From Candidatus Komeilibacteria bacterium S5_K13 (GTDB taxonomy: Bacteria > Patescibacteriota > Patescibacteriia > UBA1558 > S5-K13): a stretch of 36,739 nt of DNA. Below, one piece after another: positions 15,673-16,767 of this stretch (positions are counted from its first letter, which is position 1; every line of letters begins with the position of its first letter). Below the pieces are notes generated by a model. That model did no database searches. It was given only the letters and a program-made list of their open reading frames with translations, and was not told where the DNA came from. The stretch lies in assembly GCA_019248485.1 (NCBI GenBank), contig JAEHGL010000009.1, positions 1 through 36,739 of the forward strand. Reading direction: 5' to 3'. A program made the translations under genes and the position numbers.

Positions 15673-15740
15673 AAGTAAAGTTTTATATACAATACTTTTG
15701 TAATTTAAAATTTGTAATTTGACATTAAAAATTAATTATA

Positions 15741-15916
15741 TGTCCTGGTAGTTTCCGCCTCGGCTTCGCCTATGGCGAGACGGGCAACGGATAGAACAAC
15801 AGCCTTCCCTCGCAAAATAAATGAGCGAAGTTCCGCGAAGCAAAAATGATGCGAATATTATTTTTGAGGTCCCGCAGGTAACAATAGGTTTGAGTGGATT
15901 TTTGCGGGATAAGCTG
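15741..15916 (+). pseudogene. tRNA-Arg-derived unit 1, split by two structured insertions
   Basis: Bases 15741-15753 match the 5' end of the functional tRNA-Arg region at 16331. A 31-nt insertion (15754-15784) follows in the D-arm region; it can fold as a hairpin. The match resumes at 15785-15807 through the anticodon-stem 5' side, and a 102-nt insertion (15808-15909) interrupts the anticodon loop. TAAGCTG (15910-15916) then matches again, after which the 3' half of the tRNA is absent. Inside the second insertion, CCCGCA (15871-15876) pairs with TGCGGG (15903-15908). It cannot be a working tRNA as it stands, because the T arm and acceptor 3' strand are missing. Confidence 0.75.
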
Positions 15917-16007
15917 GTACATTTTATATACATTGCCCTTGTGTTATTATGGTTAATGCATATTTTATATAAAACTTTTGTAATTTGACATTGGAAATTT
16001 GTCATTT

Positions 16008-16037
16008 TCCGCCAGAGGCGGATCAGCCTTTGGCTGA
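16008..16037. repeat. REP-like double hairpin
   Basis: Two adjacent perfect 6-bp hairpins: TCCGCC-aga-GGCGGA (16008-16022) and TCAGCC-ttt-GGCTGA (16023-16037). They are GC-rich against an AT-rich background, which is typical of small dispersed palindromic repeats. Confidence 0.7.
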
Positions 16038-16050
16038 GAAATTGTTTTTA

Positions 16051-16232
16051 TGTCCTGGTAGTTTCCGCCTCGGCTCGCGCCGACGCGAGACGGGCAACGG
16101 ATAGAACAACAGTCTTCCCCCACAAAATAAATGAGCGAAGTTCCGCAAAGCGGAATGAAGCGAATATTATTTTTGGGGTCCTCGCAAATGTTGCTACTCG
16201 CTTATGCTCGTAGACATTTGCGGGATAAGCTG
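16051..16232 (+). pseudogene. tRNA-Arg-derived unit 2, split by two structured insertions
   Basis: Same organisation as unit 1, 310 bp downstream: match 16051-16063, 31-nt insertion 16064-16094, match 16095-16117 (one change), 108-nt insertion 16118-16225 and TAAGCTG 16226-16232. Again no 3' tRNA half follows. The first insertion keeps a hairpin although its sequence differs from unit 1 (CTCGCG-ccga-CGCGAG here, TCGCC-tat-GGCGA there). The second contains TTCCGC-aaa-GCGGAA and CGCAAATG...CATTTGCG. Substitutions that keep the pairing suggest the structure matters or that the insertions are related palindromic elements. Confidence 0.75.
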
Positions 16233-16331
16233 GTACATTTTATATACATTGTCCCTATATTATTATGATTGATGCATACTTTATATAAAACTTTTGTAAT
16301 TTGAAATTTGTCATTTGAAATTTTAATACAT

Positions 16332-16406
16332 GTCCTGGTAGTTCAACGGATAGAACAACAGCCTTCTAAGCTGTGGATCTAGGTTCGATTCCTAGCCGGG
16401 ATACCA
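16332..16406 (+). tRNA. tRNA-Arg(UCU)
   Basis: A full cloverleaf forms. The acceptor GTCCTGG (16332-16338) pairs with CCGGGAT, and the discriminator A and encoded CCA end at 16406. The D stem is GTTC/GAAC, the anticodon stem ACAGC/GCTGT with loop CTTCTAA (anticodon UCU), and the T stem CTAGG/CCTAG with loop TTCGATT. Acceptor pairing uses two wobble pairs. It is the only intact member of the three-unit array beginning at 15741. Confidence 0.95.
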
Positions 16407-16517: not shown

Positions 16518-16587
16518 GTGGGTGTAGCTCAATGGTAGAGCACTGGTTTGTGGTACCAGTGGTTGTGGGTTCGAAACCCCCTGACCA
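16518..16587 (+). pseudogene. tRNA-His-like sequence with defective 3' acceptor strand
   Basis: It starts GTGGGTG-TA-GCTC with D stem GCTC/GAGC, anticodon stem CTGGT/ACCAG, loop TTGTGGT (anticodon GUG) and T loop TTCGAAA. The T stem has one mismatch (GTGGG against CCCCC). After it comes TGACCA, which cannot close the acceptor stem with GTGGGTG. A G precedes position 1, as in real tRNA-His. It is best read as a decayed or 3'-replaced copy; the intact tRNA-His follows at 16692. Confidence 0.65.
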
Positions 16588-16691
16588 AAGACTTTACCAC
16601 AGAAATACTGAGACTTTGGAGAACCATTAAATTATTAAATTGTGAAGAGTATTTAGACATTTTATAGAGCATTCGTATTTTTACATACCAT

Positions 16692-16767
16692 GGTGCCCAT
16701 GGTGTAACGGTTAACACAGCGGTTTGTGGTACCGCTAATTCGGGTTCGATTCCCGATGGGCACCCCA
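16692..16767 (+). tRNA. tRNA-His(GUG)
   Basis: The acceptor GTGCCCA (16693-16699) pairs perfectly with TGGGCAC (16757-16763). An encoded G(-1) at 16692 faces discriminator C 16764, the tRNA-His identity pair, and CCA ends at 16767. The D stem is GTGT/ACAC, the anticodon stem GCGGT/ACCGC with loop TTGTGGT, and the T stem TCGGG/CCCGA. A terminator follows immediately. Confidence 0.96.

Follow-up and report, generated by a model that had tools for sequence, protein, structure and literature searches.

In tiny Patescibacteria, tRNA genes seem to suffer repeated hits from small mobile DNA that always leaves an intact copy or brings one

Results

Broken and intact tRNA-Arg(UCU) copies in the window

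The window, a 36,739-nt stretch of contig JAEHGL010000009.1 from Candidatus Komeilibacteria bacterium S5_K13, contains three tRNA-Arg(UCU) starts arranged head to tail, of which the third alone is complete (Table 1). The two units ahead of it copy the 5′ part of the intact gene, as a first-pass annotation of the sequence had proposed, with 42/42 and 41/42 identical positions (83/84 together). Both have the same layout: tRNA nucleotides 1–12, a 31-nt hairpin in the D arm, nucleotides 13–35, an insert of 102 or 108 nt in the anticodon loop, and nucleotides 36–42. The double split described in that annotation is confirmed, with coordinates now fixed, and its statement that the 3′ half is absent also holds: tRNA similarity stops at nucleotide 42 in both units and the remainder is missing, which means that no tRNA can come from them.

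A diverged copy of the upstream flank (direct repeat family D1) lies ahead of all three tRNA copies, showing that the repeated unit consists of the flank plus the tRNA 5′ part. The unit-to-unit spacing is 310 nt, with ~130 nt separating unit 1 from unit 2. Spacer and flank copies at the locus agree at ~80–89% of positions (11–20% diverged), compared with 83/84 in the tRNA-derived parts. Ten ORFs around the units were tested, and no GIY-YIG, integrase or transposase was found among them. Downstream, a tRNA-His(GUG)-like sequence at 16518–16589 scores 47 bits with Rfam and receives no ARAGORN call; a normal tRNA-His begins at 16693.

Table 1 Features of the tRNA-Arg(UCU) locus, in window coordinates
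Feature	Position	Strand	Remark
Outermost upstream-flank copy (P), ahead of unit 1	15683–15726	+	Direct repeat family D1
Unit 1, tRNA-Arg(UCU) nt 1–12	15742–15753	+	12/12 identical
Unit 1, 31-nt hairpin insert, tRNA nt 12/13 junction	15754–15784	+	Same 31-nt sequence at C35:25969, C75:2690
Unit 1, tRNA nt 13–35	15785–15807	+	23/23 identical
Unit 1, 102-nt two-hairpin insert, anticodon loop nt 35/36	15808–15909	+	Related insert occupies this tRNA site in G006 (L080)
Unit 1, tRNA nt 36–42, end of tRNA similarity	15910–15916	+	
Upstream-flank copy ahead of unit 2	15963–16006	+	Direct repeat family D1
30-nt double-hairpin element, spacer 3′ of unit 1	16008–16037	+	Empty counterpart 3′ of unit 2
Unit 2, tRNA nt 1–12	16052–16063	+	
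Unit 2, 31-nt hairpin insert, nt 12/13 junction	16064–16094	+	Inner stem unlike that of unit 1
Unit 2, tRNA nt 13–35	16095–16117	+	One mismatch
Unit 2, 108-nt two-hairpin insert, anticodon loop	16118–16225	+	Fold z −6.8
Unit 2, tRNA nt 36–42	16226–16232	+	
Upstream-flank copy ahead of intact tRNA	16279–16322	+	Direct repeat family D1
Intact tRNA-Arg(UCU), presumed working gene	16332–16406	+	ARAGORN; Rfam RF00005, 67.1 bits

Pairing within the inserts and further copies of them

The annotation also held that the inserts keep their pairing. This stands for the basal stems of the large inserts, which are preserved in both units and differ by one two-sided change, from CCTC/GAGG in unit 1 to CCCC/GGGG in unit 2. 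Measured against mononucleotide shuffles, the large insert of unit 2 folds far better than expected, that of unit 1 does so weakly (z −1.9), and the 31-nt inserts, each a single imperfect hairpin rather than two abutting ones, fold like shuffles of the same composition (z −0.7), so that preserved pairing applies mainly to the basal stems. A group I intron or other known RNA family was rejected as the identity of the units, as Rfam yielded no such match, either across the window under its gathering thresholds or among 18 loci, this one included, with E values up to 0.1, and the exons, ending at nucleotide 42 in both units, do not join into a complete tRNA. The annotation had itself called a plain intron reading weak, which is borne out by the lack of an Rfam match and by the absent 3′ half; its suggestion of decayed intron-like units fits less well than mobility.

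Both kinds of palindrome are multi-copy in this genome. The 31-nt sequence of unit 1 recurs at two more sites, at C35:25969 (100%), upstream of tRNA-Arg(GCG) with tRNA sequence CAACGGAT after it, and at C75:2690 (97%), where there is no tRNA. Near copies are present in other genera (G025, G029 and G030, in the last of these just 5′ of tRNA-Gln). The 30-nt double hairpin 3′ of unit 1 splits a spacer that is unbroken after unit 2 (GTCATTT^GAAATT), and this filled and empty pair within the window indicates a clean insertion in which no target bases were duplicated. Fifteen copies of the 30-nt element were counted in the 421 kb of genome sampled as background, and none in 197 kb of shuffled sequence. 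Two abutting hairpins inserted as one unit were seen both at this position and in several broken tRNA copies elsewhere, hereafter called shells. Some 30-nt double hairpins outside tRNAs (L261:6339, L256:8772) carry flanking direct repeats of 7–10 nt, unlike the clean tRNA insertions.

Shells recur at other tRNAs and in other genomes

The layout of the units is not confined to this locus. It was met again at many tRNAs and in many genomes, which argues against the unique decay that the first-pass annotation had set out as the opposing case. In the window genome, the first 11 nucleotides of a tRNA are repeated exactly within 500 nt upstream of that same tRNA in 10 of 35 cases, compared with 8 of 1186 mismatched pairs, in which each tRNA's first 11 nucleotides were sought upstream of all other tRNAs (P ~4e-12), and most of the own-tRNA copies are interrupted by a hairpin. 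An own 5′ piece upstream, split or ended by a D-arm hairpin, was found for Pro, Lys(UUU), Lys(CUU), Asp, Leu(CAA), Leu(UAG), Glu, Ser, Val and Arg(GCG), and this same arrangement at other isoacceptors rules out an Arg-specific element. The enrichment above mismatched pairs holds in three genomes, namely the window genome, G002 of the same family (9/40 versus 3/1560, mostly at other tRNAs than in the window genome) and G350 (3/35 versus 2/1190). G111 gives no 5′ signal; there, 3′ ends are duplicated downstream at 8/41 tRNAs, versus 1/1640.

A scripted table of 5′ pieces contains 18 events in which the tRNA resumes after the insert. Twelve of them lie exactly at the 12/13 junction, in Lys, Arg, Leu, Ala, Met, Ile, Gln and Thr tRNAs, and since the tRNA sequence resumes at nucleotide 13, these insertions involve neither target duplication nor deletion. 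Inserts in Pro, Asp and Val tRNAs were placed at 17/18 by eye, several placements having been judged on printed sequence rather than by script. Overall, insertion points fall in the D, anticodon and T arms, shells lie 30–400 nt from the gene, and few half-decayed shells were detected.

Related genomes show turnover at the orthologous Arg(UCU)-His locus, which holds a single clean gene in G002 and G003 and is filled in other ways in G006, G132, G053, G350 and G030. At tRNA-Lys(CUU) of G350 (L231), the flank and the 5′ part of the tRNA stand three times in tandem, with a 16-nt perfect palindrome in place of 8 tRNA bases, and are followed by an intact tRNA, a GIY-YIG ORF and an old tRNA bearing the same 16-nt palindrome. 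A tRNA-like sequence with a disrupted anticodon arm (L089, G000:C68:6665-6742) is called as tRNA-Phe(AAA) and scores 26 bits, under the Rfam cut-off.

A pattern search of 381 genomes identified hairpin-split tRNA-Arg 5′ copies, with unrelated hairpins after nucleotide 12, in ~10 further genomes of the class (Paceibacteria); the pattern AGCTCAGTTN{14,44}GGTTAGAGC proved too strict, giving one match among 192 genomes. A viral carrier was also considered and rejected, with viral contigs giving no matches to the cassette pattern and one match to the hairpin pattern, in a stretch without a tRNA, which we judged to be chance.

Complete tRNAs nested within broken ones

About a dozen loci are of a nested type, in which the first 21 nucleotides of a tRNA-Arg are followed by an arm (for example CCTGCCCGCCATGACC), a complete tRNA-Arg, the complementary arm and the rest of the outer tRNA. 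The arms vary among genomes yet pair, with duplex energies of −20 to −27 kcal/mol. Joined in silico, the outer halves read as tRNAs, with the anticodon of the inner gene in G132 (UCU) and G111 (CCU); that these halves are rejoined as RNA, with the inner tRNA serving as an intron, is barely credible. G053 also holds a complete tRNA-Arg between pairing arms within another tRNA-Arg, the nesting in G312 and G151 has more than one layer, and one cassette lies in a genome of another class with an arm identical to that of G111 and G229. In G006, an insert of the window's family interrupts the anticodon loop of a tRNA-Arg(UCU) at the second site used in the window, and this insert contains a different, complete tRNA-Arg(UCU). 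The gene order Arg(UCU)-His is common to the window, G002, G003, G006, G053 and G132, which identifies the outer copy as the resident and the inner copy as the newcomer. The nested tRNA-Arg(CCU) genes of L138 (G111) and L137 (G229), from two genomes of one family, have exchanged anticodon/T-arm bodies between inner and outer copies, which suggests recombination between nested copies.

Other structured elements beside tRNAs

Two further kinds of structured element were observed next to tRNAs. One, a conserved element of ~110–165 nt with the core GAACGCCGGAGCGATGT..ACCGCGAGGCGGTGGCTA..GTCGAAGC, sits in the T loop exactly after GTT in tRNA copies (Asp, Ser, Val, Leu, Pro). It was found at L027 and L042 of the window genome (Asp and Ser-UGA), at L208, L212 and L220 of G111, and at L327, L328, L329, L332 and L335, and it is present in 7/115 class genomes. 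It lies 3′ of an intact tRNA whose 3′ end (10–60 nt) is repeated past the element, and 5–8 nt at its 5′ end are complementary to the 3′ flank, co-varying with it. There is no Rfam match to this element, and HEARO (the IscB omega RNA) was rejected as its identity on that ground. The other, with the core GAGGAAAGTCCACGAAAACC.., occurs at L207 and L218 (G111 Glu-CUC and Glu-UUC), L324 (G072 Lys) and L313 (G255 Arg). Its first 11–16 nt are antisense to the T arm of the tRNA next to it and differ from tRNA to tRNA; they may represent a guide-like segment. In the Glu and Lys cases, the element is followed by a repeat of the tRNA 3′ end.

GIY-YIG ORFs cluster at tRNAs

At several loci, single-domain GIY-YIG ORFs of ~80–150 aa sit between the shell and the intact tRNA. 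Of the 24 such ORFs in four genomes, 17 have a tRNA no more than 300 nt away, against 0.8 expected (P ~1e-20), and among strong GIY-YIG matches in 57 class genomes, 12 of 28 inspected loci are within ~200 nt of one. Shells are commoner where a GIY-YIG ORF is adjacent (9/12 versus 21/97, P 4e-4, tallied by hand). At the Arg(UCG) locus of the window genome, the break in the outer tRNA falls within its anticodon loop; an identical hairpin lies at each end, with a GIY-YIG gene plus an intact tRNA between the two hairpins. Besides Arg(UCG), the Pro, Glu and Val/Ala tRNAs of this genome have a GIY-YIG gene beside them, with none among the ten ORFs tested around the window units, and the majority of shells are without a nuclease gene today.

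Discussion

We put at roughly 60% the probability that tRNA genes are broken, always at set positions in their arms, by small elements with hairpin ends, of which some have a GIY-YIG gene or an entire tRNA on board, and that the window units are two tandem wrecks of this kind. The direct observations behind this reading are the anatomy of the locus, the site specificity of the insertions, their recurrence in many tRNAs and genera, the turnover among related genomes, the hairpins common to unrelated sites and the clustering of GIY-YIG ORFs at tRNAs. The units fit best as dead tRNA copies entered by mobile hairpins rather than as a self-spreading tRNA-derived repeat. Of the tRNA-derived mobile repeats suggested by the first-pass annotation, the mobility finds support in the 31-nt hairpin on C35, on C75 and in other genera; the idea of the tRNA unit itself as the spreading repeat does not.

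As a possible course of events, a break or a single-strand insertion event, brought about by a putative mover, would put a hairpin element into a tRNA arm, and in the window hairpins would have entered cleanly at two places, nucleotides 12/13 in the D arm and 35/36 in the anticodon loop. All steps after hairpin insertion are ones that we infer. A hit on a sole tRNA copy should kill, and a cell would survive with an existing or immediately made intact copy, so that the loci visible today would be survivors. The intact copy with its own flank would be restored beside or inside the wreck through tandem duplication (from the sister chromosome), gene conversion or tRNA cargo, and the broken copy would stay as a shell that can itself be duplicated. 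In the window, the broken 5′ part and its flank would have been duplicated once more, leaving two shells, which themselves presumably do nothing. Several observations count against this account: the near-unchanged tRNA parts of the shells (83/84) beside diverged flanks are poorly predicted by passive decay, most shells have no nuclease gene today, and neither GIY-YIG, integrase nor transposase is encoded by the ten ORFs near the units. We further suggest, tentatively and at a little under even odds, that these are undescribed self-rescuing mini-elements of Paceibacteria tRNA genes, including the tRNA-in-tRNA cassettes, which would split the tRNA at a set place in one arm and, as part of a single event, supply or rebuild an intact tRNA, such that working tRNAs are replaced over time.

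The main rival, as far as the mover of the hairpins is concerned, is a single-strand Y1/HUH transposase (IS200 or RAYT-like) that favours tRNA arms folded as single strands and acts with nucleases uninvolved, a reading that we consider a serious if minority possibility. It would account for clean insertions without target duplication, for hairpins at the site and for insertion points in the D, anticodon and T arms, and 13 of 18 genomes carry Y1_Tnp genes, the window genome having two. They are common, not universal, in affected genomes: G006, G030, G132, G111 and G271 are all affected and gave no Y1_Tnp match, the hairpins beside the examined Y1 genes belong to other families, and some double hairpins outside tRNAs are flanked by direct repeats of 7–10 nt. 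RAYT as the mover was rejected on the differing hairpins and these five genomes. A simple scenario, in which the 5′ region of the tRNA was duplicated in tandem, decayed at random and received genomic repeats by chance, explains the three flank copies and the 310-nt spacing, which are indeed those of a tandem duplication; it is highly unlikely to be the whole story, contradicted as it is by a 12/13 site common to many isoacceptors and genomes, by an anticodon site common to G006 and by the enrichment over mismatched pairs in three genomes.

An ordinary integrative element, of which the shells would be att-site remnants left by tRNA-using integrases that restore the tRNA on integration, appears improbable. 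An intact tRNA beside partial copies is what such elements leave, and the 3′ shells (intact tRNA, ~150-nt element, 3′ tRNA fragment) resemble attL/attR, but the window shells are 5′ pieces with inserts inside the tRNA sequence rather than at its edge, shells and genes are merely 30–400 nt apart, and there is no integrase among the ten nearby ORFs or in the ~130 nt between the units. The near-perfect conservation of the tRNA parts next to diverged flanks, the strong fold of the unit 2 insert and the scarcity of half-decayed shells would all suit a functional RNA, serving either as a conserved leader or decoy whose D arm resembles that of a tRNA, or as a tRNA precursor that loses its inserts. 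We regard this as very unlikely, given that shells occur at different tRNAs within one family, that the orthologous locus of G002 and G003 has no shells, that the 3′ half is missing, that no Rfam family matches and that the inserts vary by locus.

Parts of the picture of hairpin-ended elements breaking tRNA genes have counterparts in known systems. Rickettsia palindromic elements are small multi-copy palindromes that can land in genes, and REP/RAYT palindromes share these traits; in contrast to the latter system, no linked RAYT with the same hairpin turned up among the Y1 genes examined. REPs are normally extragenic (PMC3733652). In form, the 30-nt double hairpin corresponds exactly to the mobile hairpin and double-hairpin elements of mitochondria (RHE of sponges, PMC2800124, and DHE of fungi), short abutting GC hairpins that have spread in AT-rich genomes and inserted in RNA genes; the elements here differ in being bacterial, in their fixed tRNA-arm sites, in the intact tRNA next to them and in sometimes having tRNA cargo. 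Archaeal tRNA introns transpose between tRNAs (PMC10714607), and group I introns are reported in some CPR tRNAs (PMC8172020). Both resemble our loci as insertions in tRNA genes, including the anticodon loop, whereas here there is no group I match, removal of the insert leaves no complete tRNA, and D-stem sites are used. With tRNA-targeting integrative elements, the loci share the intact tRNA beside partial copies, and they differ in their 5′ pieces, tiny size, internal hairpins and lack of an integrase.

The closest precedent for a nuclease is T6 SegB, a GIY-YIG protein with a marked preference for the neighbourhood of phage tRNAs, which introduces cuts within tRNA genes and causes a tRNA locus to be amplified in tandem (PMC13096335). 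This makes nuclease-started breaks plausible in these bacteria. By this analogy, a tRNA-cutting GIY-YIG nuclease may start the breaks and duplications. Small GIY-YIG ORFs are likewise enriched here at tRNAs of many isotypes, and the SegB motif RAWTSGAAC, on the opposite strand, matches the T-loop sequence in our reading. Unlike the phage system (PMC13096335), the targets here are bacterial chromosomal tRNAs, the copies are hairpin-broken, the tRNA-Arg(UCU) locus of the window has no nuclease gene among its ten tested ORFs, and cutting would be the implied rather than the observed step.

Searches of the open-access literature turned up no account of tRNA genes in Patescibacteria that are nested or split by hairpins. 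tRNA genes are among the most constrained genes in a small genome, yet a large fraction of them here show repeated wreckage at the same positions. If our reading is true, mobile DNA can afford to hit single-copy essential RNA genes by restoring them, and these bacteria would have a route for tRNA gene replacement as well as a bacterial-chromosome counterpart of the phage tRNA-homing nucleases. Annotation of tRNAs in Patescibacteria would then need to allow for split and nested copies.
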